DNA from: Halochromatium roseum
GTDB taxonomy: Bacteria; Pseudomonadota; Gammaproteobacteria; Chromatiales; Chromatiaceae
Reading direction: 5' to 3'
NCBI RefSeq assembly: GCF_016653315.1
Contig: NZ_NHSH01000039.1
Span: 1-39,426, forward strand
DNA: 39,426 nucleotides
Shown here: piece after piece, positions 23,029-38,421 of the stretch
How positions within the stretch are numbered: the first letter of the stretch is position 1
Layout of the letters: each line of letters begins with the position of its first letter
Notes under the pieces: model-generated
The model's input: the letters and a program-made list of their open reading frames with translations, nothing else
Database searches by the model: none
Told to the model about the DNA's origin: nothing
Made by a program: the position numbers and the translations under genes

Positions 23029-23679
23029 TCACGCGGCATTACCGCTGCCTGCTTTCACGAACTGCAGGATGTAGGCGAGCCGGTGCCCAAAGCAGGCTCG
23101 CTCCGAAAACCCTGCGGCGGTGGCAAGACGCGTCACGGTGCCGCGCGGCTGGAAGTGTGGATCGAAGATAACTTCAACGACGGCGAGGAGGCCGCCCGGC
23201 TTCAGCGCGCGATACAGCTCGGCGAGCGCGGCTTCGCGGTTGGGGATCTCCCCTAGCACGGTCACCAGCACGGCACGATCAAAGCCGTGCGTGGGTAGCC
23301 GCCCGTCCCCCAGAGCGGCCTCCAGGAAATCGACATTGCTCAGACCGGCCGCCTCTGTCTTGGCCCGCGCTCGGGCCAGCATCCCGGGCTGGAGATCCAG
23401 CGCGAGAACACGCCCGGTCGATCCGACGCCGCGCGCGAGGGGAACGGTCAGTCGCCCCGGTCCACACCCCGCATCGAGCACGGTCATTCCTGGCGTCAAG
23501 TCCAAGGTCGCGACGATCTCAGCAGCGCGATTCATCCGCGTGAAGGGATTGTCGAACTCAACGAGCCAGCGCAGCCAGACCGGACAAGGCAGACGCTGTC
23601 GACGAGAGGCCAAGCGCCAGCCAAGAACCCCGAGTGCGGCCAGAATGAGAACGGCGATGAGCGTCGTCGACAGGGTCAT
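23029..23679 (-). CDS. Membrane-anchored SAM-dependent methyltransferase
   Basis: A 216-aa protein with one N-terminal hydrophobic segment (TTLIAVLILAALGVLGWRLA) followed by a class I methyltransferase domain: FTRMNRAAEIVATLDLTPG, motif I VLDAGCGPGRLT, VLALDLQPGMLARARAK, and ALKPGGLLAVVEV. It resembles UbiE-like enzymes that act on lipid or small-molecule substrates at the membrane. Substrate unknown. The following gene on this strand is the other methyltransferase, 111 bp away. Confidence 0.85.
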   Translation of the reverse strand: MTLSTTLIAVLILAALGVLGWRLASRRQRLPCPVWLRWLVEFDNPFTRMNRAAEIVATLDLTPGMTVLDAGCGPGRLTVPLARGVGSTGRVLALDLQPGMLARARAKTEAAGLSNVDFLEAALGDGRLPTHGFDRAVLVTVLGEIPNREAALAELYRALKPGGLLAVVEVIFDPHFQPRGTVTRLATAAGFSERACFGHRLAYILQFVKAGSGNAA

Positions 23680-23996
23680 GGTTTACCTGCAGGTCTGCGT
23701 ATCGGGAGCACGGATTCCACCTCGGGCTGTCGCGCTTGTCGATCCCGAGGGCTCCGTCGGCGGCGCCTTGTTCTTTGAGCAGGCCGTTCCCAATAGCGTT
23801 CGAATCGTCGCGCTCGGTCCAGACGCGCTCTGACCGCCAGGATATCGCATGGCGGCGATACCCGCGGACCTTGGACTCCTGTCCACGGAGCGCATCCCGG
23901 TCGCGACCGGATCACCGCCACTGCCGCGCATCACGGCGACACCGCCGCAGCAACCCGTCATGCAGGGGGCAAACACCTCATGAGCGGGTCATTCGG
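23680..23996. other. Intergenic region between the conjugation module and methyltransferase genes
   Basis: These 317 bases separate the last conjugation gene from the first methyltransferase gene on the minus strand. Short frames are open on both strands, but none has a start signal or recognisable protein. It may mark an edge or a break in the mobile element. No integrase attachment repeat was recognised. Confidence 0.4.
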
Positions 23997-24659
23997 TTAC
24001 ACCCGCTTCTGCGTCTGCGTGAGCAACACAGCCAGGGCCGCCGCCGCGATCAATGCCAGCACCGGCACCGCGAGCGTCGGCACTGGTAGCGGCAACAAAA
24101 GCCCGAACCCGAGCAGGAAGCCCAGTCCGAGCAGCACCCGCACCGCCAGCCGATGAGCCAACGGGCTTGGATAGTCGAACCCCGCCAGGCGAATGCGTCG
24201 GCGGATGAGTCCATCCACGACCGCGCCGATCAGGGCAAAGCCGATGAATGGCCACCAAGCGAACAATACGACCAGGCGCTGGATCGCCAGATAAACGGCG
24301 AACCAGATTAAGTCGAGCCGGGTCTTGACCCAGGGCCAGAGCGGCGCGGCGGCCAACTTGTCGAGTTCGGGCGTCGCCTGCACGGCAGCAGCCTCCGGCA
24401 GCAGCAGGTCATAGCTCGCATCGACCAGACCCGAGCGCAAGAAGACGGTTCCGTACCAACGCTGAGCCGAGGCAAAGACGGCGGTTGCGGTGTCCTCTCC
24501 CAACTGACTCGACACCCAGCGCACCTCCTGATCACGCATGCGGGTCGACCAGTCGGCCGGGATCAGCGCCGAGAGGAGCACAAATTCCATGACCAGTAGG
24601 ATCACAGCCACAGTCGTCGCCCAGAGCCAACTGGTCTTGGTTTGGGTGTCAGTCGCCAT
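23997..24659 (-). CDS. Integrating conjugative element membrane protein (TIGR03747/DUF4400-type)
   Basis: The ATG at 24659 (MATDTQTKTSWLW) starts a 220-aa membrane protein overlapping the traD stop by 11 bp. It has an N-terminal membrane segment (TTVAVILLVMEFVLLSAL), a periplasmic loop, then two to four more (YLAIQRLVVLFAWWPFIGFALIGAVV; VLLGLGFLLGFGLLLPLPV). The stretch IRRRIRLAGFDYPSPLAHR is characteristic of the family. In SXT/R391-like and PFL-type elements this gene follows traD, as here. It is probably an accessory of the mating apparatus. Confidence 0.82.
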   Translation of the reverse strand: MATDTQTKTSWLWATTVAVILLVMEFVLLSALIPADWSTRMRDQEVRWVSSQLGEDTATAVFASAQRWYGTVFLRSGLVDASYDLLLPEAAAVQATPELDKLAAAPLWPWVKTRLDLIWFAVYLAIQRLVVLFAWWPFIGFALIGAVVDGLIRRRIRLAGFDYPSPLAHRLAVRVLLGLGFLLGFGLLLPLPVPTLAVPVLALIAAAALAVLLTQTQKRV

Positions 24660-26679
24660 CGGGTCGGCCGTTCCCTGGACGAGGCTGAGCAATCTCAGCC
24701 TGTGCGACAGGCGCAACATCATCCCCTGGAACAGGATCAGACACAGACTCAGTTGCCGGAGATGGCAGAACGTGCTCATCGCTGACCAAGATCGCCTTCT
24801 CTAACCCGAGCCGGATCTGCATGTCAGCTTCAGCCGTTGGCGGAATCTCGGTCTTGAGTCCAGCGGCAGCCTTATCAACCAACATTTCAGGCGCCACCAG
24901 GATCGGCAGCCGCCCCTTGATCGTGCGTCCCCCAGCCAAGCGCCCGATGTACTCCAGATTCGGCAGATGCCCGAGCAAGGCCGGCGGCAGCAACTCGCCC
25001 TCCTCCTCGATCAGGCGCTCACCGGCATTGCCGCTGTAGAGCAGCGGATTGTCGGACTGGGTGCTGCTGGCCTGGGTGCGCATCAGGGTCTGAAGACGAA
25101 TCTTTGGCAGACTGTCAGTGATATAGGTCTGGGTCTCAGCATCGAGCACCCGCAACGCGATCAGGTTGTTCAGATTCGCCAACACCTGCGTCGCCTTATC
25201 CTTGCTGCCGGTGCGCGCGGCAAAGTCGGCGAAGCTCTGGGTGGCCACGGTCAGCTGCAATCCAGCACCACGCCCCTTGTTCAGCAGCTGCACGAAGGGA
25301 TCGTTCATCACCTCGGCGGCCTCGTCGATGAAGACGCTGACCGGCTTGTTGTTAACCCCATAGTTGTAGCGATCCCCAGCAATCGAGGTCAGCTCGGCGA
25401 TCAACAGCGAGCCGATGGCGCTGCCGACCATGCCGTCGGAGAGCGAATCCAGACCGATGTAGGCGACATAGCCGTCGTTGATCAGGTCGGTCATGCGCAT
25501 CAGATCGCGCGGATCATCCGGATCGCTCGGATTGGGCGAGAGCAAGGGACCGAGCTGCCCGGAGGTTAGCATCACCAGTACTGGCATCAGGCTCGCGACC
25601 ATCTTGGAGAAATGCACACGCTCGTGCTCGTGCATGTTGACCAGGCCATCGATCACCGATGAGGGATGCTCGGGGGCGATGCGGTTGCGGTAGTGGCGGA
25701 TCAAGGCCTGCACCCGGCCGTGGCTATCACGGGCCTTGCTGAGGAGCGCCTCGCGATCGAAACGCGCATCGACCTGAGTGCTATAGGTGACCAGCGCGCG
25801 CTCGACCAGGGCATCGACTCCCCCTTCAAGGTAGTGGCGCAGCTTGAGCAGGTTCGGGCGCTCCTCGACCAGCAAGAGCCCGGCGATGATGTGGCTCATC
25901 GCCATCTGACCGAAGGCCTTGAACGGATCAGCGCCGGTCTCCGAGGGCATCAGTGCGGCGATGCGGCTGGCCAGTTCGGTGTGGCGACCGAAGGTGGCCA
26001 TCGGATCGATGCGGCAGGAGTCCTCCGGGAAGGCCGGATGGAAGGCGGCGAACTTCTCCGGGCGTCCGGCCAAGGTGCAGGCGCGCTCGGCATTGTCGCG
26101 CAGCTCTCGGTCGCCCTTGGGATCGATGATCAGCACCGCCTCGCCGCGCAAGACGGCCTGGCTGATCAGCAGATCGAACAAGCGGGTCTTGCCGGCGCCG
26201 GTGGTGCCGACCACCAGCAGGTGGCCTTCCAGGGTGCTGAGTGGCACGGCGAGGTCGTCTTCGCGCGGCGCGAGGCCATGCAGCCAGTGAGCGCCGATCG
26301 CGGTGGTTGAGATCGGGGTCAGTCGCGAGGGGCCGATCCGCAGCAGGTCGTGCGCAAGCTGCGCCTGATCGCGCTCCCACTCGAAGCCGCGGCCCAGCCA
26401 GAGCTGGCCCTGGAACCGTTGTGTGGTCGCGGCCAGCTCGGCGACGGTGACGAAGGTCTGTACCCGTCCGCTCAGATTGGCGTGCAGGGCGCGCAGGCGC
26501 AAGGCCCCCGGCAGCCAGCTCAGGGCCATGAGCAGGGCCAACAGGGCGAAGAGCCGAAAGGCGCCCGGGTGCAGTTGCCAATGGCCGGCGCTGGCAAAGG
26601 CGAAGGCGGCAAGCAACAGCCAGAACCCGACCGCGACGGCCTCATGATTGGCGCGCCAAGGGTTGTGATAGCGCTGCAT
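24649..26679 (-). CDS. traD: Conjugative coupling ATPase TraD (SXT/TOL type)
   Basis: TraD is the type IV coupling protein that links the relaxosome to the mating channel and pumps DNA. The 676-aa protein has two N-terminal membrane segments (VAVGFWLLLAAFAFASAG; LFALLALLMALSWLP). Walker A is GTTGAGKT at 158-165. A Walker B-like segment is VFIDEAAEVMNDPFVQLLNKGRGAGLQ (quoted in parts: VFIDEAAEV, LNKGRGAGL), and VATQSFADFAARTG follows. It matches the SXT/TOL TraD subfamily. Its start abuts the traI stop, and its end overlaps the DUF4400-type gene. Confidence 0.93.
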   Translation of the reverse strand: MQRYHNPWRANHEAVAVGFWLLLAAFAFASAGHWQLHPGAFRLFALLALLMALSWLPGALRLRALHANLSGRVQTFVTVAELAATTQRFQGQLWLGRGFEWERDQAQLAHDLLRIGPSRLTPISTTAIGAHWLHGLAPREDDLAVPLSTLEGHLLVVGTTGAGKTRLFDLLISQAVLRGEAVLIIDPKGDRELRDNAERACTLAGRPEKFAAFHPAFPEDSCRIDPMATFGRHTELASRIAALMPSETGADPFKAFGQMAMSHIIAGLLLVEERPNLLKLRHYLEGGVDALVERALVTYSTQVDARFDREALLSKARDSHGRVQALIRHYRNRIAPEHPSSVIDGLVNMHEHERVHFSKMVASLMPVLVMLTSGQLGPLLSPNPSDPDDPRDLMRMTDLINDGYVAYIGLDSLSDGMVGSAIGSLLIAELTSIAGDRYNYGVNNKPVSVFIDEAAEVMNDPFVQLLNKGRGAGLQLTVATQSFADFAARTGSKDKATQVLANLNNLIALRVLDAETQTYITDSLPKIRLQTLMRTQASSTQSDNPLLYSGNAGERLIEEEGELLPPALLGHLPNLEYIGRLAGGRTIKGRLPILVAPEMLVDKAAAGLKTEIPPTAEADMQIRLGLEKAILVSDEHVLPSPATESVSDPVPGDDVAPVAQAEIAQPRPGNGRPDGD

Positions 26680-29159
26680 CAGCGCTGGACCTCGATGCGC
26701 TGATGCGCGCCGAGCCGAAAGCGCGGGTCCGTGAGCAGGCGCTGGCGCAGGCTGTAGACGCCGAGGCCGTGGCGTTTGGCCAGCGCCTTGAGGGTTGTGC
26801 TATCGAGCACGAGCACTTGGCTGCCATCACCGGGGCCGTGCTGGCGCTCGAGGTCAGCAAGGATGGCGGGGATCAGCGGTGGCTTGTTGGTGGGTTCCTC
26901 CGGGTTGGTGGATTCGCTTGGATGCTGCGGGGTTGTTACTTGACCCGACGCGGTTGCTGGCCGGTTGGGAGATGTCTGGGGACTTGGAGGTATCGGCGCT
27001 GGCGTTGATGTCGATGTCGGTATCGGTGCCGATGTCGCTGACAGCTGCGCTAAGGGTTGTGCTGAGTCTTCCGAATTGGGCTCGACGGTGGTTTGACCTG
27101 AGCCTCCCTCCTCCACCAGCAACCGCAACCGTGCTGACACCTCAGCGGTCAAGACCAGCCAGCGCTCGCCGTCATACTCACGCACCCGACGCATCGGGGT
27201 TCTGGGGTCCGGCTCCAGGGCGCATTCAGCACTGAGCGCCTCCGCCGCCTGGGTCGGCTCCCAGCCGGTGGCCTTGAACCAGGCCGGATACGGCAGCCAG
27301 AGGAGATCATCACGCCAAGCGAACCGGTGTTCATGAGCCGCCGGCGGGGCCACATCGATCAGGTGGGCCATCAGTTGGGCGCTGCCAGGGCCGTGTTCGG
27401 TGAGCCAGACACGGGCCGCAGCGCAGGCATCCCTTTGGGACTGATCCGGCTCTGCGACCGATAATGGCCTGATCACTGACGCGGGGCCTACAGCGGAAGC
27501 GGGCGCTGAGCCAGCCGCTGGTGGTGATGCACCGAGGACACTGGGCGTGCCCTCTTCGGGATCGGGATCGGGATCGCGATGCGGGCGCTGCAAACCATTT
27601 GAGGACGGTGATGCGCCGTCCAAGTCAGACGCAACGTCGTCTCCGCGTTCCAGATCAGACACCCTGCTTTCGGCTGCTGCAGATTCCCCAGCCCTCGGCG
27701 CATCAGCCAGATCACCGACCTCGTCCGTACCAGGCCCATCAGCGTCTGGCGCAATTGCCTCAGAGCGCGACGTCACTCGGGTACCCGCCTCGCTAACCTC
27801 TTCCCGCGCCACCAGATCCACAGCGGCCGGGGCACCATGCGGAAACAACAGCTCCGGACTCTGCAGCCGCAGCAGATTGAGCATGGGTGGTTGCTTTCCC
27901 GCCGATGCCATGATCCCGGGAGCCAATCGCCAGGTCACCTCCCGGCCGAGGGCATCGGTTCGAGCGACCGCCAGACCGCGCTCGAGCAGCAGCTCTGCGA
28001 TGCTCTGCGGATCGCGCGGAATCCCCGGGATGCGCTCGGCGGCAAGCAGTTCGGTGATATCGCGCGCGGCGGCCGGCCACACTAGATGCAGACCGGCATC
28101 GCGCAACAACCAGACCCGCGCACCCGGCACATTGACCTGCCAGCGCCCGTCGTGCAGCAGCCGACGCATGGCATCGAGCAGATAGCGATCGACCGGCACC
28201 CCGACGGCGGTATCGATCGGCGCGATGCGCTGCTCGCGCAGATCCCGCTCGACGCTGTGGCGGTCGGCTTGGCGCACCAACTCGACCAGCACGCTGCTAT
28301 GGGGCACGCCGGTCACGGCAGCCACCAATCCGCTGTAGAGCCCCGGATCGGGTTGCGAGAGCCAGCGCTCGACCCGGCTCGGCAGCAGACGTTTCAGGGC
28401 GATCAGGTTGAACACCTCGTGACCGTTGTGAGCGCGCCGCTCACGCCAGCGCAGGAAATAGCCCTCGAGGCCGTGGCGGCTGGCCCAGTCGGTCAGGTCC
28501 TCGTCGATCGGCGACCAGGTCGTGCGGCCATCACGATCGGTCGCGGCGACATCGACCAACGCCTTGCCAGTATCGTGCAGCAAACCGCCGAGTGCGGCGG
28601 CTGCGCGCAGTCGTGGCTCCAAACGCCGCTGCTCGACGCGCGGCCTATCGAGCCCAACCATGACGCCGCGACTGGCGCGTGCGGCATGGAAGGCGACCTC
28701 CAGGCCATGGCGATAGAGTCCGCCGGCGCCGCGATGATGATGCACCTCGCTGGCCGGGATCAGATGCACGAAGGCGGCATAGCGGTGGATCACCGGTGCG
28801 ATGTAGGTGGCCCAGCGCTCGCTCCCGTCGTCTTCGTCGTCACCGAGGGCCAACTCCCGGCGCAGCCGCGCGATCAGCTCGGCCTGGGTGGCGATCAGTC
28901 GCTCGAGTGGCGGCAGCGGCAAGCCTTTGAGGAAGGGTGGGTAGCGTGGGATCTCCTCGTCCAATAACGCTGGCGCTGGCGCTGGCGCTGGTGCCAACGC
29001 CGGTGCTGATTCCGGCGTTGGCTCCGACTCGACTTGACCTCCGGGCTTGGTCATCGCAGTTGGCGCTTCAACAGTCGGCATCGATTCAACCGTTGACGAC
29101 AGCGAGCCAGCAGGGTCCGGGATGCCTGTCATCTGGCGTAAGCGGTGCAACAGACTCAT
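26679..29159 (-). CDS. traI: MOBH-family relaxase TraI (HD-domain type)
   Basis: MOBH relaxases nick DNA at oriT and use an HD-hydrolase-like N-terminus. The 826-aa protein shows the TraI_2 domain: PRYPPFLKGLPLPPLERLIATQ (in part), RYAAFVHLIPASEVHHHRG with His140-142, GLYRHGLEV with His151, and GGLLHDTGKALVDV with the HD pair at 195-196. The C-terminus (about 570 on) has the TraI_2_C (DUF1528) region: WLPYPAWFKATGWEPTQ and a final DNA-binding segment LKALAKRHGLGVYSLRQRL. Low-complexity Ala/Pro and Asp/Pro linkers separate the domains, making it longer than the about 715-aa R391 protein. Confidence 0.9.
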   Translation of the reverse strand: MSLLHRLRQMTGIPDPAGSLSSTVESMPTVEAPTAMTKPGGQVESEPTPESAPALAPAPAPAPALLDEEIPRYPPFLKGLPLPPLERLIATQAELIARLRRELALGDDEDDGSERWATYIAPVIHRYAAFVHLIPASEVHHHRGAGGLYRHGLEVAFHAARASRGVMVGLDRPRVEQRRLEPRLRAAAALGGLLHDTGKALVDVAATDRDGRTTWSPIDEDLTDWASRHGLEGYFLRWRERRAHNGHEVFNLIALKRLLPSRVERWLSQPDPGLYSGLVAAVTGVPHSSVLVELVRQADRHSVERDLREQRIAPIDTAVGVPVDRYLLDAMRRLLHDGRWQVNVPGARVWLLRDAGLHLVWPAAARDITELLAAERIPGIPRDPQSIAELLLERGLAVARTDALGREVTWRLAPGIMASAGKQPPMLNLLRLQSPELLFPHGAPAAVDLVAREEVSEAGTRVTSRSEAIAPDADGPGTDEVGDLADAPRAGESAAAESRVSDLERGDDVASDLDGASPSSNGLQRPHRDPDPDPEEGTPSVLGASPPAAGSAPASAVGPASVIRPLSVAEPDQSQRDACAAARVWLTEHGPGSAQLMAHLIDVAPPAAHEHRFAWRDDLLWLPYPAWFKATGWEPTQAAEALSAECALEPDPRTPMRRVREYDGERWLVLTAEVSARLRLLVEEGGSGQTTVEPNSEDSAQPLAQLSATSAPIPTSTSTPAPIPPSPQTSPNRPATASGQVTTPQHPSESTNPEEPTNKPPLIPAILADLERQHGPGDGSQVLVLDSTTLKALAKRHGLGVYSLRQRLLTDPRFRLGAHQRIEVQR

Positions 29160-29758
29160 CGTTGGTCGCCAGCGGCATCGACATCATCGTCCGATGCCTG
29201 ATCGTCCGAACACTGATCCCCCGGCAACGGCTGCGTCAGCCGGACCAGCACCTGTTGCAGCCGCAGCTCGGCCTGCTTCATCCACCGCAGGCGCAGTCGA
29301 ATCTCACCGAAGCGCTGCTCGGCCTCGAGCGCGATGCGTCGCTCCCAGGGCATGGCGGCCGACAAGCTCGAGCGGGTATAGACATCAGCCTCACCGCGCG
29401 GCAGATAGAGGGTGCGACCGGGACCGCGCGCCAGGAACCACTCGATGGTGAAACTGCCGCCGGTGCGCCGCGGTGCTCGAATGCGCACCCCGAGTCGGGC
29501 ATCGCGCCCACGCTGCATCCGTAAACGCTGCGCCCGCAGCTGCTCCATGGTCTCGATCTCGATCCCCTCAGCGACCAAGCGCAGGCGCTCGCGCTCGGCC
29601 TCGAAGCCAAGCCCGACCAGCTCAGGGAGCGGCTCGAGCGAGAGTAAACCTCCGCATGTCGACCCCCCTGCCCACCACTTATCCAGGTGAGCAGCCCCCT
29701 GCGGGGTCACCAGGGGACTTTGGGATGGATCAGTGGGTTTGTGCGCGGGCTCAGCCAT
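29156..29758 (-). CDS. Conjugation-associated hypothetical protein, possibly MobI-like
   Basis: The ATG at 29758 has an AGGTGG site and encodes 200 aa, overlapping the traI start by 4 bp, so it is the first gene of the relaxase operon. The central part, LRAQRLRMQRGRDARLGVRI then SFTIEWFLARGPG, recalls MobI proteins of SXT/R391 and IncC elements, which assist initiation at a nearby oriT. The similarity is a pattern impression and not decisive. The acidic C-terminus is CSDDQASDDDVDAAGD. Position beside the candidate oriT region supports a role in mobilisation. Confidence 0.6.
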   Translation of the reverse strand: MAEPAHKPTDPSQSPLVTPQGAAHLDKWWAGGSTCGGLLSLEPLPELVGLGFEAERERLRLVAEGIEIETMEQLRAQRLRMQRGRDARLGVRIRAPRRTGGSFTIEWFLARGPGRTLYLPRGEADVYTRSSLSAAMPWERRIALEAEQRFGEIRLRLRWMKQAELRLQQVLVRLTQPLPGDQCSDDQASDDDVDAAGDQR

Positions 29759-30231
29759 GGGCGTCCACCTGGACTAGGGGCTCAGGGCTGCGCACCAGGC
29801 GGCTTTGCCACCGGCTGCTCCCTCGGCGCTGCGACCTGTTGACTCGATCGATCAATGACTTGAATCCTCTGTTCAGTCGTCGTCCAAACGGCCCTGCTCA
29901 TCTGGAATTTGGGCAGCCGTTGCGCACCTAGCTGCGGCCTGACCACTGGGCACCTGGGCCTGCGTCGGGTCTTGACGGTCCTGTCGGCCGCCCGTGCCCA
30001 TCAGGGCGTTCAGCCTAGGCCTGCTCATCTGCAAAACCCGATGCGCAGTCAATGGCTTAAGCGATGCTGGTCAGGGCCGCTGCGCACCTCGACTCGATGC
30101 ATAGCGGTGCGCACCTGACGCGCAGCCTCGGCACAGCCTAGCCCGCGGTTCAGCACCGGCGCAGCAGGGAAAGATGCCGTTTTTCGGCATCTCTTTCCGT
30201 TTCGTGCCTGGGTCAGAGGCGGCATCCTCTT
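29759..30231. promoter_or_regulatory. Candidate oriT/control region of the conjugative element
   Basis: No gene is seen in this divergent gap. It holds four TGCGCACC elements (near 29789, 29920, 30080, 30107; the last is within the palindrome GGTGCGCACC), a direct repeat CCTGCTCATCTG at 29893-29904 and 30020-30031 (each followed by S-AA), an 8-bp palindrome GCCTAGGC at 30013-30020, and a hairpin at 30172-30192. Such density of repeats between the relaxase operon and partition genes fits oriT plus activator sites. The nic site cannot be located by eye. Confidence 0.5.
30172..30192 (+). other. Strong hairpin in the control region
   Basis: AGATGCCG, TTTTT loop, CGGCATCT form an exact 8-bp stem. 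The flanks GGAAA and TTTCC extend it with a 2-nt bulge. A T-rich stretch follows on the plus side. Roles in oriT processing, transcription termination or attenuation are all possible. Confidence 0.7.
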
Positions 30232-30346
30232 GTCGTGCTGTAGTCGTGCTGTAGTCGTGCTGGGGTTCCGGAGCGGCCCAATGGTGGCGGTGTCTGGGGC
30301 CTCTGGTCGGTGTTTGTCGTGCTGCAGTCGTGCTGCAGTCGTGATG
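30232..30346 (+). repeat. Two clusters of three 11-bp iterons, parC-like centromere
   Basis: The unit GTCGTGCTG recurs with an 11-bp period at 30232, 30243 and 30254, then again at 30316, 30327 and 30338 (last copy GTCGTGATG). The joining bases are TA in the first cluster and CA in the second. About 53 bp lie between the clusters, where a parM promoter would sit. Plasmid R1 parC has two clusters of 11-bp iterons flanking the par promoter, bound by ParR, and the layout here is closely alike. It ends 11 bp before the parM-like ATG. Confidence 0.85.
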
Positions 30347-30357
30347 GAGGATTCTCG

Positions 30358-31356
30358 ATGGTGGTGGTCGGTCTCGATATTGGATACGGCAATCTGAAGC
30401 TTGCGGCGGGTGGCTGCGGCGAGCCGCCGCTTGAACGGATCATGCCGGCGGTGGCGGCACCCGAGGCGCATGTCGCCGAGCGCCTGGCGGGCGTGTCGTC
30501 AGGCACGCGCGAGGGGCTTGCCGAGGGGATCAGGCTCTCGCTGCATGGCGAGCCCTGGATCGCTGGCATCCACCCGGCGCGGGTCTCGGGCTGGCAGCGG
30601 GCGCTGCATGAGGACTATGCCGCCAGCGATAGTTATCAGGCGCTGGTGTTAGCGGCCTTGGAACTCGTCGGTGAGACGTGCATCGACCGTCTGGTGACCG
30701 GACTGCCGGTGGCGCAGGCCAGTGATGCAACTGCGCGTGAGCACTTGCGCCGACGGTTGCAAGGCCGGCAGCGGCTGGCTGAGGGCTCGGTGGAGATCGC
30801 CGAGGTTCGGGTGATCGCCCAGCCGGTCGGCGCCTTTGTCGATCTGCTGATGCAGGCCGATGCCGCGCTGATCGAGCGCATCGGTGCCGGCACGGTGCTA
30901 GTGATCGATGTCGGTTTCTTTTCGGTGGACTGGTCGGTGCTGGTCAACGGCGATCTGCGACGCACACGTTCAGGGACCAGTCTGGAGGCAATGAGTGTGC
31001 TGATCGATGCGGCGGCGGCGCGCCTGTGTGTCGGGCGCGGCGGCAAGGCGCCGGTGGCGGCGATCGAGCAGGCCTTGGCGGCGCAGCGCTCGCGGATTCT
31101 GCTGCATGGTGAGTGGGTGGCGTTGGCGCCGGTGCTGCAGTTGGCCGCGCGCGAGGTGGCGCAACGGGCACTGGAGGCGCTGCGCCAGGGTCTGCGCCAT
31201 GAGCAGACCAATCCCGACCTGCTGTTGCTGAGCGGGGGTGGTGCAGCGTTGTTCGCGCCTATGGTGCAGCGTGTCTTTCCCCGGGTGCCGCTGCATCAGG
31301 CCGCAGACCCAGTCGGCGCCAATGCGCGCGGTTATTTCCACTATGGCTGCCGCTGA
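30358..31356 (+). CDS. parM: ParM/StbA-like actin-type plasmid segregation ATPase
   Basis: ParM forms dynamic actin-like filaments that push apart plasmid copies. The ATG at 30358 has a GGAGG site within the last iteron region and gives 332 aa. Actin-fold signatures are phosphate 1 (GLDIGYGNLKLA near residue 5), the connecting LVTGLPVAQ, phosphate 2 (VLVIDVGFFSVDWSV) and the adenosine motif LLLLSGGGAALFAP. The C-terminus is ADPVGANARGYFHYG, typical of ParM-like proteins. A GTG at 30310 in the same frame is poorer. It overlaps the next gene by 14 bp, as in a parMR operon. Confidence 0.88.
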   Translation: MVVVGLDIGYGNLKLAAGGCGEPPLERIMPAVAAPEAHVAERLAGVSSGTREGLAEGIRLSLHGEPWIAGIHPARVSGWQRALHEDYAASDSYQALVLAALELVGETCIDRLVTGLPVAQASDATAREHLRRRLQGRQRLAEGSVEIAEVRVIAQPVGAFVDLLMQADAALIERIGAGTVLVIDVGFFSVDWSVLVNGDLRRTRSGTSLEAMSVLIDAAAARLCVGRGGKAPVAAIEQALAAQRSRILLHGEWVALAPVLQLAAREVAQRALEALRQGLRHEQTNPDLLLLSGGGAALFAPMVQRVFPRVPLHQAADPVGANARGYFHYGCR

Positions 31357-31645
31357 GCGTTTGCGCATCCAGGTCGGGGTCTGCGCACGCCGGCATCCGG
31401 AGCTGTTCGCCAGCTTGATGCGCGTTTCGCGGCGCGGGCGTGCGGACCGGCTGCGGCAGTTGGCCTTATTGGGGTTGAGTGGTCAGTCGCGCGTGGACGC
31501 TGAGCCTGCTTCAGGAACCACGGCGTCTCCGCCCGAGGCCGATGCGCGATCGCCCCCTGAGCCCTCCTCCATCGATTCCGAACCCGACCCCCAGCTCGTC
31601 GCCGATCGGGCGCGCCTGCTGGAGGCCCTTCACCTGTCTGACTAA
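31343..31645 (+). CDS. ParR-like partner protein of the ParM homologue
   Basis: A 100-aa ORF starts at an ATG 14 bp inside parM. Its N-terminal half is basic and helical (RIQVGVCARRHPELFASLMRV, RRGRADRLRQLALLG), a pattern seen in ribbon-helix-helix ParR/StbB adaptors that bind parC iterons. The C-terminal half is an acidic, Pro/Ser-rich tail ending LVADRARLLEALHLSD, suited to contact a filament. No direct family assignment is certain, but size, order and the iterons upstream support ParR. Confidence 0.7.
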   Translation: MAAAERLRIQVGVCARRHPELFASLMRVSRRGRADRLRQLALLGLSGQSRVDAEPASGTTASPPEADARSPPEPSSIDSEPDPQLVADRARLLEALHLSD

Positions 31646-31667
31646 GCTTGCTTGAGGTCCACTTGCC

Positions 31668-32045
31668 ATGACGACTTTGCTCTCTCCTGAAGCCCTGGTC
31701 GACTCGATTCAGCGTCTGAACCGCGCCTATCTGCAGACGGCCCGCGATGGTCTACGTGCGCAGCCGGCGTTGGCGCGGTCGCTGTTTGGTCTCGAGGCGC
31801 CGTTGGCACCCTGGCTGGCAACCGCCGACTCGGAGGCTGTTGAGCGTCTCGCGCGACTGCCGGGGACGGTGTTCCAACCGCGCTTGCCGGCGGAGCCGCA
31901 GCGCTTGCTCGCGGCCTGCGCACGATCGTCGGTGGATGCGGCGCTGCCGGCACTGCATCTGCTGTTGCATCAGCTCGGTGATCCTGAGGCCGATGCCGAT
32001 CACGATCAGGATCAGGATCACAAAAACGGCTCGGCGTTGTCCTGA
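31668..32045 (+). CDS. FlhD-like transcriptional activator subunit (SetD/AcaD type)
   Basis: The 125-aa protein resembles flagellar regulator FlhD in its first 75 residues: SIQRLNRAYLQTARDGLRAQPALARSLFG (in part, compare FlhD INLSYLLLAQRLI), then LAPWLATADSEAVERLARLPGTVFQPRL (in part; FlhD has LAxxxQLVCHFR). The tail is Asp/Gln/His-rich. On SXT and IncC elements the FlhD-like proteins SetD and AcaD partner FlhC-like SetC and AcaC to switch on transfer genes. The next gene overlaps by one base and is FlhC-like, so the pair is probably a conjugation activator and not flagellar. No flagellar gene is nearby. Confidence 0.75.
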   Translation: MTTLLSPEALVDSIQRLNRAYLQTARDGLRAQPALARSLFGLEAPLAPWLATADSEAVERLARLPGTVFQPRLPAEPQRLLAACARSSVDAALPALHLLLHQLGDPEADADHDQDQDHKNGSALS

Positions 32046-32611
32046 TGTCGGCTCAGCCAATGCTTGAGCGGCATGCCCGCATGCAGGTGGCGCTGGCCTT
32101 GATCGCGCGGCGAGCGCGCCTGTCGATCGTGCATTGGGAGACGCGGGTCGCGCGGGATGCGCTGCGGGCGCTCTATCGGGAGGTGCATGGTGAGCCGGCG
32201 CGATCGGGTCAGTTACCGACGGCCGGTGGGGCGGCGATCACGACCCGCCACGGCCAGCTGTGTGCGTCGGTCTTCGCGGTGCTCTATCGGCGCTTGCAGC
32301 TGGCCTCGAGCGGTGTGCACGGGCAGGATCGGTGCTCGCGGTCGATTGTGGCGATGATCCAGGCGCATGATCTGGCGCAGCTGGTACTGGGTGCCGAGAA
32401 CAGCCTGGAGATCACCCTGTGCTGGATGCTGGCGCGTGATCTGCGGATGGGCCGTGCGCGCCTGAGATCCTGTCCACAGTGCCAGATCCAGTATCTGGTC
32501 ACCGAGCAAGGGCGCTTTGATCAGGGCTGCCCGCTGTGCGCGCGCTATCGTAGTCTGGGCTTGTCGTGCTTGAAGGTCGGGCAGACAGACGGCTCATTGT
32601 TGCGAGGATGA
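32045..32611 (+). CDS. FlhC-like transcriptional activator subunit (SetC/AcaC type)
   Basis: The ATG shares a base with the FlhD-like stop (TGATG). The 188-aa product resembles FlhC: MQVALALIARRARLSIVHWETRV near the start (in part; FlhC has [22 protein letters not shown] in the same place), SLEITLCWMLARDLRMGRARL, then a zinc site of Cys143, Cys146, Cys162 and Cys165 (CPQC and CPLC, 15 apart), nearly the E. coli FlhC spacing. Together with the FlhD-like gene it probably forms a heteromeric activator of the relaxase operon and other transfer operons. Sequence-level similarity is modest, but gene order and zinc site are convincing. Confidence 0.85.
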   Translation: MSAQPMLERHARMQVALALIARRARLSIVHWETRVARDALRALYREVHGEPARSGQLPTAGGAAITTRHGQLCASVFAVLYRRLQLASSGVHGQDRCSRSIVAMIQAHDLAQLVLGAENSLEITLCWMLARDLRMGRARLRSCPQCQIQYLVTEQGRFDQGCPLCARYRSLGLSCLKVGQTDGSLLRG

Positions 32612-32745
32612 GCCGTCCATGGTCTCGTCGCCCTGTCCGAGCCTGGATGACAGACCCGTCGTTGGCGCTGCGATGACGGCATCGAGCCGCCGTCGGTGAT
32701 GCTGCCGATGGAGGCTGCGCCTGAGAGCTCGTCTCGTCTCGCTGA

Positions 32746-33834
32746 TCAGAACCCGCGGCGCGGCTTGCCCTCCTTCAGCACCCGTTTGACCATCTTGCCG
32801 AAGGCACGATCTTTGGTCCGACGCTCGGCAAGACTGGCGGAGTTGAAGCGGTCCTCGGCTAGAAGCTTGCGCCAACGCTGCAGCCGCGCGGGGTCGAGCT
32901 GGCCCTGCTCGATGGCCTCACGGAGTGCGCAGCCGGGCTCGCGCTCGTGTTGGCAGTTCCCGAATCGGCAGTGCGCCGATAGGGCCTCAATGTCCTCGAA
33001 GGTCTCGGCGATGCCGGAGGCGGCGTCCGCCAATTGCAATTCGCGCATGCCCGGGGTGTCCAGCACCAGGCAGCCGCCGGGGATCAGGTGCAGCTCGCGA
33101 CGGGTCGTGGTATGACGCCCCTTGGCGTCGTCCTCGCGGATGACCTGGGTGGCGATTGCATCGGTGCCGGCCAGGGCGTTGGTGAGCGTGGATTTGCCGA
33201 CACCGGATGAGCCGAGGAAGGCGACGGTTTGGCCTGGCTGGCACCAGGGCGACAGCCGGTCCTGTGGGTCGTCTCCGCGAGCATCGAGCGCGAGGACCGG
33301 GACCCGATCGGAGACGCTGCGGGCGGCGTCGATCCAGGTTGGCAGATCGGTCACCAGGTCGGCCTTGGTCAACACGATGACGGGCGTGATTCCGGCCTCG
33401 AAGGCTAGCGCGACATAACGCTCTAGCCGGGCCAGGTTGAAGTCCTGATTGCAGGAGGTGACGATGAAGACCGTGTCGATGTTCGCGGCGATCAGTTGCA
33501 CCTGCCGGTCGGTGCCGGGGGCGCGGCGCTTGATCAGGCTGTTGCGGGACAGGAGGTGGCTCGCCCGGGGCTGTGCGCGATCGAGCAGCAGCCAGTCGCC
33601 GACGGTGACGTCGGCTCGCGGTGGGAGGGCCTCATCGATGCCAGCGCCCAGGATCTGCAGGCCGCTGCGATGCACGGCGACGACGCGGGCTGGGGGCGTT
33701 GCTGAGAGGGCCTCCGGGCTGGTCTGTTCGGCGAAGCTGGGTTGCCAGCCGAGTGCGGCGAGCGACGCTGGATCCTGGCTGGCTGAGTCGGCGTGCTTGC
33801 TCTCGTGAACATGGCCGAAGTCGTCGGCGTTCAT
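32746..33834 (-). CDS. rsgA: Ribosome small subunit-dependent GTPase A
   Basis: RsgA (YjeQ) is a circularly permuted GTPase that checks late 30S assembly. The 362-aa protein (ATG at 33834, which has AGGG about 9 nt upstream; ATG 33843 and TTG 33852 are alternatives) shows an OB-fold N-terminus, the permuted order LTKADLV (G4), GSSGVGKSTLTN (G1), DTPGMREL (G3), and the zinc finger CRFGNCQHEREPGC. RRELHLIPGG and the GCAL tail are typical. It ends the nitroreductase-GNAT-rsgA cluster and converges with the FlhC-like gene, marking the chromosome side of the module. Confidence 0.94.
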   Translation of the reverse strand: MNADDFGHVHESKHADSASQDPASLAALGWQPSFAEQTSPEALSATPPARVVAVHRSGLQILGAGIDEALPPRADVTVGDWLLLDRAQPRASHLLSRNSLIKRRAPGTDRQVQLIAANIDTVFIVTSCNQDFNLARLERYVALAFEAGITPVIVLTKADLVTDLPTWIDAARSVSDRVPVLALDARGDDPQDRLSPWCQPGQTVAFLGSSGVGKSTLTNALAGTDAIATQVIREDDAKGRHTTTRRELHLIPGGCLVLDTPGMRELQLADAASGIAETFEDIEALSAHCRFGNCQHEREPGCALREAIEQGQLDPARLQRWRKLLAEDRFNSASLAERRTKDRAFGKMVKRVLKEGKPRRGF

Positions 33835-33845
33835 GCGGATCATCC

Positions 33846-34385
33846 CTACCAATACATTGGATCGTTGAGTGCCTCGACACAGCGCGAGGGTCCTTTGAGC
33901 GGGGTCATCACCTGGTCCGTCAACGACTGCGCCAGCCAGCCACCGGGCTGCTGCAGCGTGAATGGAGCTGGTGCATCCTTTTCACTGATCGGCCTGAGGC
34001 CGACCTTGGCATAGTAGCCGGGATCGCCATAGGTCATGGCGATATCGACGCCGGCGCTGCGCAGCGCGGCTAAGCCTTGGTTCAGCAGCCGTTGCCCGAT
34101 GCCCATCCCTTGCTGATCGGTGACCACGGCGACCGGGCCGAGCACGAACACCGTTCGCTCATCCTGTTCGTAGGTCAGCCTGGAGAAGAGGATGCCGCCG
34201 ATGATCGCGCCCTCTTCCTCGGCGATGACGACGAAGCGATCCTGCTGCGCCGTGCTGGCGAGCAGATTGTGCACCAGACTGCCGATCAGGGCGCCTTCTT
34301 CCGCGCCCTCAGAGGCGGTGAAGGTGGCGCGGAACAGCTCGATGATCACGTCTTCTCGGCCTTGGGTATCAGTCGAAAACGGCAT
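33846..34385 (-). CDS. GNAT-family N-acetyltransferase
   Basis: The ATG at 34385 gives 179 aa with GGAA upstream. The acetyl-CoA loop is VAVVTDQQGMGIGQRLLNQG (usual Q/RxxGxG/A), preceded by GAIIGGILFSRL, and GDPGYYAKVGLRP follows, as in YhbS-like acetyltransferases. Substrate unknown. Its start lies inside the nitroreductase 3' end (17-bp overlap), and its stop is 12 bp before rsgA, so it is mid-operon. Confidence 0.88.
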   Translation of the reverse strand: MPFSTDTQGREDVIIELFRATFTASEGAEEGALIGSLVHNLLASTAQQDRFVVIAEEEGAIIGGILFSRLTYEQDERTVFVLGPVAVVTDQQGMGIGQRLLNQGLAALRSAGVDIAMTYGDPGYYAKVGLRPISEKDAPAPFTLQQPGGWLAQSLTDQVMTPLKGPSRCVEALNDPMYW

Positions 34386-35412
34386 GCGATCGTTTCCGTT
34401 GAATGGAGCAGTGGACGCTGTCACCGTTGCACGATGTTCGTCGCAGGACCCGATCGACGGGTCGTCTCGGTGAGGCCGGCAGTCGCTTCCTGGCATACCC
34501 AAGGCGAATCAGCAGCAGCGGTTGTTCGCCGGCATTCAGGCTCAGGTGAGCCGCAAGCCGCCTGCGAATCGGCTCGACCTCGCAGGGCATATTGACGTGG
34601 GCGTGCGCGATGCCAAGCGAGGTCGCGGTGAGCACGACGCGCTCGAAGCTGCGACCGACATCGACCCAATGGCGTTTGTCATTTTCCCGGGCAATGAAGA
34701 GCAGCAGCAGCGAGGACTGACGGATCGCCTTCTCCTGCCGATCGGCCTCGCCTTCTGGCTTCACCAGCCTCGTCATGATCCAGCGGCCGAGCCAGCGCGG
34801 CACGGCGGGAAAACCCAATGCCGCAGCGGCGAGGCCATCCTGTCGAGTCGATACCTCACGCCGGGTAAACCGGATCCATGACACCAGCTCCGCGACGAAG
34901 GCCGGATCATTGAACTGGACGATGTTGGCCTCCCGGACGAAGTCGATGAGCGGCTCGATGTCCGGATCGCCGACGCGGAACGGGCGTATCTGCACGGACT
35001 CGCAGCCATTGGCCTCCAGCATCGCGGTCAGATCGGAGGCGTCGATCGCTCGTCCGTCGTAGGTTCCGCGGTTCGACTGGCGCTCGGGAATGGCGCGGAA
35101 CAAGGCGTCGGTGTTCTCACTGGCGCCCTCCGACAGCCGAACCCGCAGACAGGGCTCCGGTTCATCGGCGGGGAAAGACTCGACCCTGGCGGCAAGCCCC
35201 TGATGCGCGGCTGCGACGATGAGATTGTCGAGCGCACAGCCGAGGCTGATGAACAACGCGTGATCGTCCGGGTCGACGACCGGCAGGCGCCGGGACAGGT
35301 CAGGAAAGATCCGAATCCCGTCCTGATGCACCGAGAACTGCCACGGCTGCGTGTTGTGTCCGGAAGGTGCGCGCACCGCGAAGGGGATCAGCTGCTCGGC
35401 AATGTATTCCAT
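34369..35412 (-). CDS. Nitroreductase-like protein (Acg/Rv3131 type)
   Basis: The ATG at 35412 (MEYIAEQLIPFAVRAPSGHN) has AAGG at good spacing; the frame upstream to 35538 is not conserved-looking. The 347-aa product has the nitroreductase-fold signature APSGHNTQPWQF, IPERQSNRGTYDGR, and LLLLFIARENDKRHWVDVG(RSFERV). The size and motifs are those of Acg-like proteins, in which two fused half-domains bind FMN. It is first in the cluster with GNAT and rsgA. Role unknown, perhaps redox or dormancy related. Confidence 0.83.
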   Translation of the reverse strand: MEYIAEQLIPFAVRAPSGHNTQPWQFSVHQDGIRIFPDLSRRLPVVDPDDHALFISLGCALDNLIVAAAHQGLAARVESFPADEPEPCLRVRLSEGASENTDALFRAIPERQSNRGTYDGRAIDASDLTAMLEANGCESVQIRPFRVGDPDIEPLIDFVREANIVQFNDPAFVAELVSWIRFTRREVSTRQDGLAAAALGFPAVPRWLGRWIMTRLVKPEGEADRQEKAIRQSSLLLLFIARENDKRHWVDVGRSFERVVLTATSLGIAHAHVNMPCEVEPIRRRLAAHLSLNAGEQPLLLIRLGYARKRLPASPRRPVDRVLRRTSCNGDSVHCSIQRKRSHAVFD

Positions 35413-35502
35413 ATCGCACCTTCGGGCTATCACGAGTGAGGTGAACGACGGTCTACCGATCACGCTGATGGCGATCGGACCGGGGAACAAGATTGCGCAT
35501 GA

Positions 35503-35760
35503 ACATTTGGCGCGCGGACGCTGGCCCATGCGACCCATCAGGGCTTTATCATCCCCACCGCGATGAAGATCGGCAACCTCTATGGCATCCCCGAATACGC
35601 CCCATTCTTTCGCGCACGCCTCACCCGGGTTGAGTCCTGATCATGGGCTGAGGTCCAGCGCGGACCGTTCTATCCGGAGCGCATGCCGCTGGTTCCGTTT
35701 CGGCCCTCCCAGGACGGCTCCGGGCACCTGGCAGCGCAGTTCGACAGGGTCATGGCCTGA
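35503..35760 (+). pseudogene. Possible decayed gene fragment upstream of DUF2784
   Basis: One frame reads protein-like sequence across a stop: GFIIPTAMKIGNLYGIPEY and PFFRARL up to a TGA at 35638, then GPFYPERMPLVPF and AAQFDRVMA to a second TGA at 35758. An ATG at 35563 could start it. I do not recognise the family. It may be a relic or chance in GC-rich DNA. Confidence 0.25.
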
Positions 35761-35862
35761 GCATGACCCGGTAGCGCTCGATGAAGGACGGGGCCGAGTC
35801 TCGGATCTCGAGGGTTCTCGACCGCGAGCAGGACACCCCTGACGGCAAGACTGGAGGTCACG

Positions 35863-36261
35863 ATGGACGCTTTCACATTCCGGCTGCTCGACCAAGCGCT
35901 GTTCCTGCTACACGCGGCCCTGGTGCTGTTCATCCTCACCGGCTGGATGTGGCCACCCACCCGGCGCCTGCACCTGCTTGTGGTGGTGCTCACGCTCGGC
36001 TCTTGGGTCGGGCTCGGCGCCTGGTACGGCTGGGGCTACTGCCCGCTGACCGACTGGCATTGGCAGATCAAAGCCGCCCTCGGCGAGACCGCATTGCCTG
36101 CGTCGTACATCAAGTACTACGCCGACGCGCTGACGGGTACGTCCTGGAATCCGATGCTCATCGACGTTTGGGTCGTCGGCTTGGCGCTGGCGGCGCTGGT
36201 CGTGTCAGCGGTGTTGAACGGGCGCGACTGGAGGCGGCAACGAGCCAGCAAGCGCGGGTGA
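35863..36261 (+). CDS. DUF2784 family membrane protein
   Basis: A 132-aa protein with three to four hydrophobic segments (LFLLHAALVLFILTGWMW; LHLLVVVLTLGSWVGLG; VVGLALAALVVSAVL). WGYCPLTDWHW is the family's hallmark CPLTDxxxx segment, followed by SYIKYYADAL. Members are small inner-membrane proteins of unknown function. The ATG has GGAGG about 6 nt upstream. The lipocalin gene begins 85 bp downstream on the same strand. Confidence 0.85.
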   Translation: MDAFTFRLLDQALFLLHAALVLFILTGWMWPPTRRLHLLVVVLTLGSWVGLGAWYGWGYCPLTDWHWQIKAALGETALPASYIKYYADALTGTSWNPMLIDVWVVGLALAALVVSAVLNGRDWRRQRASKRG

Positions 36262-36346
36262 TCGAGGCGAGTCAGCACAGGGGGAAAGCACCAACCGCAT
36301 CGAAGCGCGGGTTGCTTCGTCGCCATCGACGCCCAACTCCAGAGGC

Positions 36347-36883
36347 ATGATCAAGCGCCCCCTTTTGGCCTTGCGCGCGCTGCTTCCAGGGCGCCTCGGT
36401 AAGCCTCGCCAGCCGCCTGCGACTGTGGCTCGGGTCGATCTCGATCGGCTGTTGGGCACCTGGTTCGAGGTGGCCAGGCTACCCAATCTCGAGGCGGACG
36501 GCCCTTGGCAGGACAGCGTCAATGTGACCGCGACCTATACGAAGCGTGCGGATGGGCGCATCTTCGTCCAAACCGTCGCCCATAACGCGAAGGCGGGGAT
36601 GCGCCGCAGCGAGGTCAACGGTAGCGTTCATCCCGCCGATCCGAGTGGCTCGAAGCTGATCTTGCGCTTCTTCAAGCTGATCCGAGGCGACCTCTGGGTG
36701 ATTGGATTGGACCCTGATTACCGATGGGCGTTGATGGGCACGCCAAGCCGCAGGCGGCTTTGGCTCATCGCCCGCGCTCCGCGCATCGAACCCGAAGACT
36801 TTGACCAGGCCATGGCGATCGCTGTCGCGCAAGGCTACGATGCGGCGCGTGTCAGACCGACCCGGCAACGGGTCGTGTCCTGA
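36347..36883 (+). CDS. Lipocalin (Blc-like)
   Basis: A 178-aa beta-barrel protein for small hydrophobic ligands. Signatures: LDRLLGTWFEVARLPN (family GTWYEIARLP) at about 32-47, NVTATYTKRADGRIFV, and WVIGLDPDYRWALMGTPSR then RLWLIARAP near the C-terminus (family YxxxxVGxPxRxxLWIL). Bacterial Blc is an outer-membrane lipoprotein, but no lipobox or clear signal peptide is visible in the basic N-terminus (MIKRPLLALRALLPGR), so its location is unsure. Confidence 0.88.
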   Translation: MIKRPLLALRALLPGRLGKPRQPPATVARVDLDRLLGTWFEVARLPNLEADGPWQDSVNVTATYTKRADGRIFVQTVAHNAKAGMRRSEVNGSVHPADPSGSKLILRFFKLIRGDLWVIGLDPDYRWALMGTPSRRRLWLIARAPRIEPEDFDQAMAIAVAQGYDAARVRPTRQRVVS

Positions 36884-36966
36884 CGGTAGGCCGGCGGTAT
36901 GGGTGCCTTGCGCGCATCCGATCCGATCCTGGTTGCGAACCCAGACGCGGCACGCACTCCGCGCGA

Positions 36967-37617
36967 TCACAGCGTAGCGACGAAGCCGAGAACGGCCTCT
37001 GCCGCCTGATCCAGATTCTGCTCCCAGTTGCGGCCGGATTGCCGGCGCGGCTTGAAGCTGTGATCCCCGTCCTCGATCCAGGCCAGTCGAATCGACGGCG
37101 CGAGCGCGTAGCCGGCGATCTCGTCCGGCGTGCCGAAGGGATCGCGGGTGCCCTGACAGATGAGCGTTGGCGTGCGCAGGCCGCGCAGTTGCTCGGTGCG
37201 CAGCCGATCCGGCTTTCCCGGCGGATGGAACGGGTAGCCGAGGCCGACCAGCCCGGCGACGCCTCGCTCATCGGCGATCAGACTGGCCATGCGCCCGCCC
37301 AGGGATTTGCCGCCGATCAGCAGGCGTCGAGCGTCAGTCCCCGCGGCAAGCGCCTGGTCGATGACCCGATTCCAGCGCTCCAGCAGCACCGGCTCCCGGT
37401 CCGGCGGTTTGCGCCTGCCGGTGCGCCGGATCTCGGCCATGTACGGGAACTCGAAACGGATCACCCGCATCCCGGCTTGGCCCAACGCACTGGCCATCTG
37501 TGCCATGAAGGGTGAATCCATGCCCTGACCCGCACCATGGGCCAAGACCAGGGTCCAGTGCGCATCCGGGGGCCCGTCGGTCAATGAATCGAGCTCATCT
37601 GCGGGGTTGTCAGACAT
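36967..37617 (-). CDS. Alpha/beta hydrolase (KANL3/Tex30 family)
   Basis: The 216-aa protein has the alpha/beta hydrolase core: LVLAHGAGQGMDSPFM, VIRFEFPYMAEIRRTG, nucleophile elbow IGGKSLGGRMAS with the catalytic Ser, and late GDHSFKP with the catalytic His. LICQGTRDPFG carries the likely Asp. These match the KANL3/Tex30 group, often annotated dienelactone-hydrolase-like. Substrate unknown. It starts at ATG 37617 and is divergent from the phosphoesterase gene. Confidence 0.87.
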   Translation of the reverse strand: MSDNPADELDSLTDGPPDAHWTLVLAHGAGQGMDSPFMAQMASALGQAGMRVIRFEFPYMAEIRRTGRRKPPDREPVLLERWNRVIDQALAAGTDARRLLIGGKSLGGRMASLIADERGVAGLVGLGYPFHPPGKPDRLRTEQLRGLRTPTLICQGTRDPFGTPDEIAGYALAPSIRLAWIEDGDHSFKPRRQSGRNWEQNLDQAAEAVLGFVATL

Positions 37618-37787
37618 GACGTGGCGGCCTCATGATCAGTGAACCAGCGCATCCGCAGCATCATCCCGCAACAGCAGTCAGCAAGACGATGAAGGTGATC
37701 GACATCCAAGCGACCCTAAATTCGATGAGACAAGCGTGTTTGCTCGCGATCAGGTGACCCTGGCACGCAGCCCAACACACCCTTCCC

Positions 37788-38318
37788 GTGCTTCGCGTGG
37801 CCATTCTCGCCGACACTCACGGCTGCCTGGACGCGCGGGTGGAGGCCTTGGTAGCGACCTGCGACCTGGCGGTTCACGGCGGCGATATCGGTAACGCGGA
37901 GGTCTTGCAGCGCCTGCGGCCGCGTCAGGGACGGGTCATCGCCGTCATCGGAAACAACGACCTTCCACGCAAGTGGTTGCCAGAGCAAGCGCAGGTCCTG
38001 GATGGCCTGCGAGAGCACGAGAACCTGATGCTACCCGGTGGGACACTGGCGGTCATCCACGGCCACCAGCTCGCCGCCCGGAATCGCCATGAGCGTCTGC
38101 GCCGCCGCTTCCCGCAGGCCCGCGCCATTGTCTATGGGCATAGCCACCGTCTGATCGCCGATCGCGATGCGGAGCCCTGGGTGCTCAATCCCGGCGCTGC
38201 GGGCCGGGCACGGACCTTTGGCGGACCCTCCTGCATCGTACTCGACGCCGCGGAGCATCGCTGGTCACTGCGCATCGAGCGCTTCGAACCCTTGACATGC
38301 CACGGACGCTCGTCCTGA
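37788..38318 (+). CDS. Metallophosphoesterase (YfcE/MJ0936 type)
   Basis: A GTG start gives 176 aa. Metal-binding motifs in order are ADTHGCLD, HGGDIGN, GNNDLPRK (family GNCD), IHGHQ and GHSHRL. The C-terminus reads VLNPGAAGRARTFGGPSC. This is a small calcineurin-like phosphodiesterase or phosphatase, probably using Mn or Ni. Its position divergent from the hydrolase gene suggests its own promoter in the 170-bp gap. Confidence 0.92.
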   Translation: MLRVAILADTHGCLDARVEALVATCDLAVHGGDIGNAEVLQRLRPRQGRVIAVIGNNDLPRKWLPEQAQVLDGLREHENLMLPGGTLAVIHGHQLAARNRHERLRRRFPQARAIVYGHSHRLIADRDAEPWVLNPGAAGRARTFGGPSCIVLDAAEHRWSLRIERFEPLTCHGRSS

Positions 38319-38421
38319 AGCCGCCCTGTTGTTGATTGTCGCTGTCCCTCCCACGATGGCCACGCAGGACGCAGGCGTAAGTCGCTACACTTCGGAGCAA
38401 GCAACCCCTTGGAGACTGTGC

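Follow-up and report, generated by a model that had tools for sequence, protein, structure and literature searches.

The window, a 39,426-nucleotide stretch of Halochromatium roseum DNA (contig NZ_NHSH01000039.1), very probably carries a type II partition locus of the SrpMRC family that resides on an SXT/IncC-type conjugative element and works as a phased-ring segregation machine. The locus (30232–31645) comprises two clusters of iterons, a parM-like gene and a small parR-like gene. Its protein relatives in SXT/R391, IncA/IncC and pAQU elements place it among the actin-based (type II) SrpMRC loci. The locus of this purple sulfur bacterium is an additional member of that known family. A sequence-only reading had called it an R1-type ParMRC locus. 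The R1-like split-iteron layout upstream of parM-parR holds, but the protein family is not that of R1 and the kin of its ParM are found in SXT/R391, IncA/IncC and pAQU.

The genes, the iterons and their period, spacing and conservation are read directly from the DNA. Six iterons with a period of 11 bp and cores of 9 bases, arranged as three plus three, are located 12–126 bases upstream of the parM start. Cluster 1 (30232–30262, unstranded) contains three GTCGTGCTG cores at 30232–30240, 30243–30251 and 30254–30262. A gap of 53 bases (30263–30315, unstranded) separates it from cluster 2 (30316–30346, unstranded), which contains GTCGTGCTG, GTCGTGCTG and, as the sixth core, GTCGTGATG, starting at 30316, 30327 and 30338. 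Cluster 2 spans −42 to −12 of the parM start and touches the likely ribosome site of parM. A 20-base iteron-pair pattern, allowing up to three mismatches, gave four matches in the window, all at the locus, versus a mean of 0.15 and a maximum of 2 in 100 shuffles. The two sets of three iterons flanking a gap, as proposed from the sequence-only reading, are confirmed in position and in period. Genome-wide, a slightly looser pair pattern with up to two mismatches gave 8 matches, of which the 4 at the iteron locus had 0 mismatches and the other 4 had 2. The reversed control pattern gave 10 genome-wide matches, and the idea that the iterons form a genome-wide box was rejected.

The parM/srpM-like gene (30358–31356, + strand) encodes a 332-amino-acid actin ATPase with Pfam matches to ALP_N (5.9e-29) and MreB-like_C (1.1e-6). 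Its AlphaFold model, built from a 5-sequence alignment, has a predicted local distance difference test (pLDDT) score of 84.6. Foldseek matches of this model in the PDB include Ta0583, R1 ParM (third match), a Clostridium ParM and other actin-like ATPases, which agrees with the earlier assignment of the gene. The parR/srpR-like gene (31343–31645, + strand) shares a 14-base overlap with parM and encodes 100 amino acids that align with SrpR of R997 and 20 others, so the small overlapping ParR-like gene also stands. All members of this 22-member alignment share L21, R33, R36 and L40, and P19, E20, R38, A41 and G44 are near-invariant. From the N-terminus, a conserved block around PEL...L..RxRAERLRxLAxxGL is followed by a variable linker and then by a conserved, RxxLL-like C-terminal stretch. 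A profile of the 22 rows, calculated with simple Chou-Fasman values, favours a strand within residues 5–17 followed by helix, with a weak strand preference near 42–44. This order is roughly that of a ribbon-helix-helix (RHH) fold, and the N-terminal block is probably RHH. Membership of the R1 family by protein was rejected, as no ParR match was found in Pfam or PDB sequences and the ParM relatives are those of SXT/R391, IncA/IncC and pAQU.

The nearest relative is the Lamprobacter modestohalophilus locus L049, with 91% ParM identity. Between L049 and the window, 0 of 54 core bases differ, whereas the gap has changed at 11 of 53 positions (p 0.00025) and the upstream DNA at 41 of 296 (p 0.00095). 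Differences also affect 2 of the 8 spacer bases and 5 of the other 21 bases. Conservation of the iterons upstream of a close parM homologue, which the sequence-only reading had expected, is therefore seen. The same Lamprobacter genome (G002) has two par loci, L048 with GTCGTTC iterons and L049 with GTCGTGCTG iterons. In remote loci the iteron letters change and the period is kept. GTCGTTC iterons occur in L047, L048 and L050–L052, GTCGAC or CTCGAC iterons in L053, L054 and L056–L058, AAGCAATC iterons in IncC and IncA, and AGWGCAC pairs in R997. Exact runs of at least 6 at lag 11 were found in 13 of 24 loci, and at other lags from 4 to 40 in 0 to 4 of 24. When the window and L049 are set aside, lag-11 runs remain in 11 of 22 loci, and 500 shuffles reach at most 5. 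The 13 loci outside the host family contain 55 windows at lag 11, distributed over 8 of the 13, the weaker ones being reached by 4–10 of 300 shuffles; 37 windows are at lag 22 (29 of them in L115) and at most 7 at any other lag from 5 to 35. In L115, from the Geoalkalibacter plasmid pGSUB1, two pairs of palindromic GGGCCCATTTGGGCCC units with 22-base spacing lie upstream of parM, possibly a two-times-11 version of the iteron site.

A two-cluster score was applied to 30 loci, which include relatives of one another. Near-copies (L049, L052, L060, L062–L065, L069 and L120), a second IncC locus (L112), loci with a broken or partial ParM (L045, L071) and the Dyella loci L013/L014 were omitted. At lag 11, 18 of the 30 loci pass, whereas no other lag from 7 to 16 is passed by more than 3 of 30. 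The passing loci include IncC, IncA and the SXT-type R997, which has no 7-of-8 window at lag 11 in a simpler test. Taken modulo 11, the offset between the two clusters falls within 5–8 for 17 of these 18 loci and for 12 of 13 groups. Sulfuricystis is the exception, and shuffles cover all 11 residues. Because the scan window (−200 to −6), the clade motifs and the 13 groups were picked after the loci were seen, the Rayleigh p of 0.0006 is a guide only. The offsets of the twelve groups range from 63 to 127 bases and, at 10.5 bases per turn, sit from 0.14 below to 0.10 above a whole turn count. Where two offsets tied (73 or 84; 82 or 93), the larger was used; with the smaller, pAQU2 would be 0.19 off a whole turn. 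The gap of R1 parC, 39 bases, would fit this spacing. Iterons within a cluster are interchangeable by 11 bases, so the phase concerns the helix face and not the length. The simplest reading suggests a single ParR ring that takes in both clusters while the DNA between them loops out, by analogy to the split R1 centromere, which has been described with such a looped-out middle (PMC5016525). We lean slightly towards a wider claim. The mobI-linked ParMR (SrpMRC) family, ranging from Chromatiaceae elements to SXT, IncA, IncC and pAQU, would have in common a centromere of 11-bp iterons split into halves that are spaced by whole helical turns. Under this claim, the iteron letters would change along with ParR, and this would determine which related elements are able to coexist in a cell.

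In the proposed mechanism, binding, ring, filament and timing are modelled on the relatives and on R1. ParR dimers would bind the 11-bp iterons through the N-terminal block and form arrays on both clusters. The clusters, lying on the same DNA face, would join one ring with the intervening DNA looped out. By R1 analogy, the 53-base gap could hold a promoter as well as loop out. The C-terminal helices of ParR, held in the middle of the ring, would catch the end of a ParM filament. The tail of R1 ParR is reported to bind ParM (PMC5016525), and the tail may do the same at this locus. The filament would then push two copies of the circular element apart. With the flhD-flhC-like genes directly behind parR in a tightly packed row, the partition proteins are probably made together with the transfer activator. 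Coupling of par expression to the activator genes in this row is likely, and the system would act when the element is excised or replicating. Plasmid stabilisation by srpMRC of R391 and SXT and binding of srpC by SrpR have been reported, as has a contribution of SrpMRC to reducing R391 loss (PMC4489591).

The genes around the locus are those of a conjugative element. Divergent from parM lie a mobI-like gene (29156–29758, − strand; PF19456, 3.9e-14), a MOBH-type relaxase gene traI (26679–29159, − strand; PF07514, 1.1e-73) and the coupling protein gene traD (24649–26679, − strand; TraG-D_C and TrwB domains), followed by a DUF4400 gene beyond traD. The partition system is thus located next to a MOBH relaxase operon, as had been predicted. 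On the other side, the flhD/setD/acaD-like activator gene (31668–32045, + strand) starts 22 bases after parR. Its product has no Pfam match. It was assigned by comparing profiles built from four sequences per side, in which FlhD-like proteins from the same context matched (87.7%, E 3.4e-6). The flhC/setC/acaC-like gene (32045–32611, + strand; PF05280, 2.3e-15) overlaps it by one base and encodes 188 amino acids matching an Aeromonas plasmid FlhC by BLASTP (3e-9). An integrase gene after parR, as in SXT, was rejected, as the flhD-like gene follows parR and the contig has no PF00589 match. The intergenic region between mobI and the iterons (29759–30231, unstranded) is a candidate origin of transfer (oriT) by position, inferred from SXT, and contains two of the three KTGCGCACCW sites in the window. 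The hairpin AGATGCCGTTTTTCGGCATCT (30172–30192, + strand), either an activator box or a terminator, contains GCCGTTTTTCGGC and is also present in L049. In another genus, 8 loci (L059–L065, L069) have a similar ACCGTTTTCGGT located 195 bases upstream of parM. Across the window, an activator-box pattern gave 6 matches, versus 6.5 expected by chance.

Positions 23999–39426 of the window are colinear, at 91% identity, with one Lamprobacter contig (G002 contig 35, 54,299 bases) that bears L049 and also carries traH. TraH (PF06122) is encoded in H. roseum on contig C30, which is colinear with positions 11264–25613 of that Lamprobacter contig. Further ORFs (open reading frames) of C30 resemble an exonuclease, a recombinase, SSB, TraF and TraG by sequence reading, without a family search. 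Since C30 carries TraH and is colinear with the par-bearing contig, the SXT/IncC-type element is most likely larger and extends beyond the window, and we infer the link between the two contigs. PF07514, PF19456 and TraD domains in the window together with TraH on C30 place the element in the MOBH SXT/IncC type. Positions of PF00589 integrases in 7 genomes were too numerous to assign element ends. Another H. roseum contig, C25 (L045, 8725 bases), is a patchwork colinear with window positions 12913–39426 at 78–95% identity with many jumps, and holds broken pieces of parM, flhD, flhC and traD. It may stem from a second strain, from a copy in decay or from a collapse in the assembly. Cargo-like genes further left and right encode an RsgA-like GTPase, an acetyltransferase, a nitroreductase, a lipocalin, hydrolases, methyltransferases and type I restriction proteins. 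The restriction genes (99–8118) comprise two HsdM, one HsdS and one short HsdR-like ORF near the contig end. A RecD2-like helicase is divided between two overlapping ORFs (9390–11820), and a perfect 7-base tandem repeat, TGAGGGT, is present in 6.7 copies at 15471–15517.

ParM matches at E 0.001 or better were found in 31 of 210 host-family genomes. A plasmid search with ParM matched 1374 records, all below 60% identity, and a search of viral contigs found no relative. The best ParM matches outside the host family are from Methylomonas (42%), pAQU and IncC (about 40%) and R997 (39.3%). Single contigs exceeding 5 Mb carry related loci, and Thiodictyon has one on a 417-kb plasmid. Among 27 stretches taken around ParM matches, which include the broken own-genome copy L045 and the partial ParM L071, MobI matches occur in 22 and both FlhD and FlhC in 20. 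Two of the stretches without matches, L054 and L060, stop no more than 0.6 kb from parM, while L066 continues for 4.6 kb and still has none; the flanks of weak ParM matches (such as G111, G114, G149, G203 and G213) were not in the sample. Of the block of iterons, parMR and FlhDC that the sequence-only reading proposed to search for elsewhere, the period and the MobI/FlhDC context recur, and 12 of 30 loci show no array. In Thiohalocapsa marina (L046/L011), with 74–75% ParM identity and ParR present, no MobI match and no iterons were found and TraI matched only in pieces; here, loss of the site goes along with loss of the relaxosome. In L053, a lytic-transglycosylase-like ORF was read between parR and flhD, and an SLT gene is annotated nearby in 5 plasmid records (L106, L107, L109, L117, L119). 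SXT, IncA/C, pAQU and other elements have already been noted to combine mobI and srpRM with FlhCD-like activator genes, traG and a lysozyme-like gene in one neighbourhood (PMC4542580). No traG was found among the window ORFs scanned, and mobI adjoins parM.

Several results weigh against a phased-ring SrpMRC locus. No family match below E 0.01 was obtained when the 22 ParR-like proteins were searched against Pfam; none of the 22 matched a ParR family in Pfam at E ≤0.1, and the five weak matches, at best 0.014, point to families with no relation to ParR. A PDB sequence search with the ParR profile gave one match, unrelated (E 1.8). The AlphaFold model of ParR from four sequences has helices at 2–17, 19–25, 30–51 and 83–95 and no strand (mean pLDDT 69.2), where a single-chain model cannot make the two-chain RHH ribbon, and Foldseek found no good fold match for it in the PDB. 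No sigma-70-like promoter was found in the 53-base gap between the iteron clusters. The 12 loci failing the two-cluster test include Thiohalocapsa, both Methylomonas plasmids, Geoalkalibacter, Marinobacter, Pseudomonas and several remote ParMs. In a coarser first scan, lag 11 was clear (at most 1 of 100 shuffles) in just 4 of 26 loci. An earlier two-cluster run with 60 shuffles passed 20 of 30 loci, of which 17 fit the phase and L067, L108 and L114 break it. None of the genome's 10 PF00589 integrase matches is on the window contig, and SXT has int after srpR, whereas flhD-flhC follow parR here.

Other explanations of the locus were considered. The iterons may mainly be operators through which the FlhDC-like activator or a ParR repressor controls the parM-parR-flhD-flhC row, with segregation minor or lost. 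The position of cluster 2 against the likely ribosome site of parM, the upstream hairpin box kept in some relatives and the activator genes directly after parR agree with such a role. We regard it as very unlikely, as the iteron letters vary between clades and arrays are also present where flhC is convergent with parMR (IncC, IncA, pAQU). Moreover, the window has no further match to the 20-base pattern at up to three mismatches, whereas the box of an activator regulon should probably recur. That the par proteins chiefly aid conjugation, at the relaxosome or the coupling step, is unlikely. The frequent company of MobI (22 of 27 stretches), the 4- to 14-fold drop in R391 transfer reported after deletion of srpM and/or srpR (PMC4489591) and the reported enhancement of conjugation by R1 Par proteins (PMC4949242) all point to it. 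On the other hand, srpMRC is reported to raise plasmid stability 1.8- to 2.1-fold in a transfer-free assay, and competitor DNA to abolish SrpR binding to oriT (PMC4489591); the oriT binding results in PMC4949242 describe R1 ParR without specific binding.

A decayed remnant, in which the element is fixed in the chromosome and the par locus no longer works, is quite improbable. The colinearity of 23999–39426 with one Lamprobacter contig at 91%, the lack of a PF00589 match on the window contig and the broken parM, flhD and flhC pieces on C25 would all be in line with decay. However, the reading frames of parM, parR, flhD, flhC, mobI, traI and traD are open and align with relatives along their length, the iteron cores are unchanged from L049 while the gap has diverged, and a TraH gene is present on C30, colinear with the same Lamprobacter contig. 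The reading as a phased-ring partition locus of the SrpMRC family is therefore preferred.

This reading has consequences beyond the host. No description of the IncC parMRC centromere was found in searches of an open-access library (listings, and passages of some of the papers), although IncC plasmids carry much drug resistance; nor were the split 11-bp design of the IncA/IncC site and a family-wide phase rule found in print there. A 43-base stretch of pP99-018 that includes three IncC iterons recurs in plasmid sequences, with 960 records containing it. One spacing rule for the landing site is suggested across a large family that includes widespread drug-resistance plasmids. A phased split site, if true, predicts that half-turn insertions break partition and whole-turn insertions spare it.

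Among known systems, srpMRC of SXT/R391 (PMC4489591) shares homologous ParM and ParR proteins with the locus (ParM 39.3% identical to R997), a centromere region between mobI and parM, and an FlhDC-like activator on the element. In the SXT branch, srpMR-int form one operon that is switched on and driven by SetCD, whereas the activator genes here lie in the par gene row itself. The six direct iterons here have a period of 11 bp, whereas srpC is reported with 13-bp repeats, which could be re-read as 11-bp-spaced pairs. The IncA/IncC parMR genes (vcrx151/152) show the same mobI, parM-parR order and two 11-bp iteron clusters, read in IncC pP99-018 and an IncA plasmid. They differ in their iterons, which are like AAGCAATC and not GTCGTGCTG, in ParM (about 39% identity) and in the following genes, an H-NS-like gene and then a convergent flhC. 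R1 parMRC resembles the locus in having split direct repeats in two clusters upstream of the par genes (PMC4949242, PMC5016525), and its repeats are also reported as 11 bp, with at least two needed (PMC9426499). R1 differs in having five plus five repeats instead of three plus three, and in a ParR family that the ParR here does not match.
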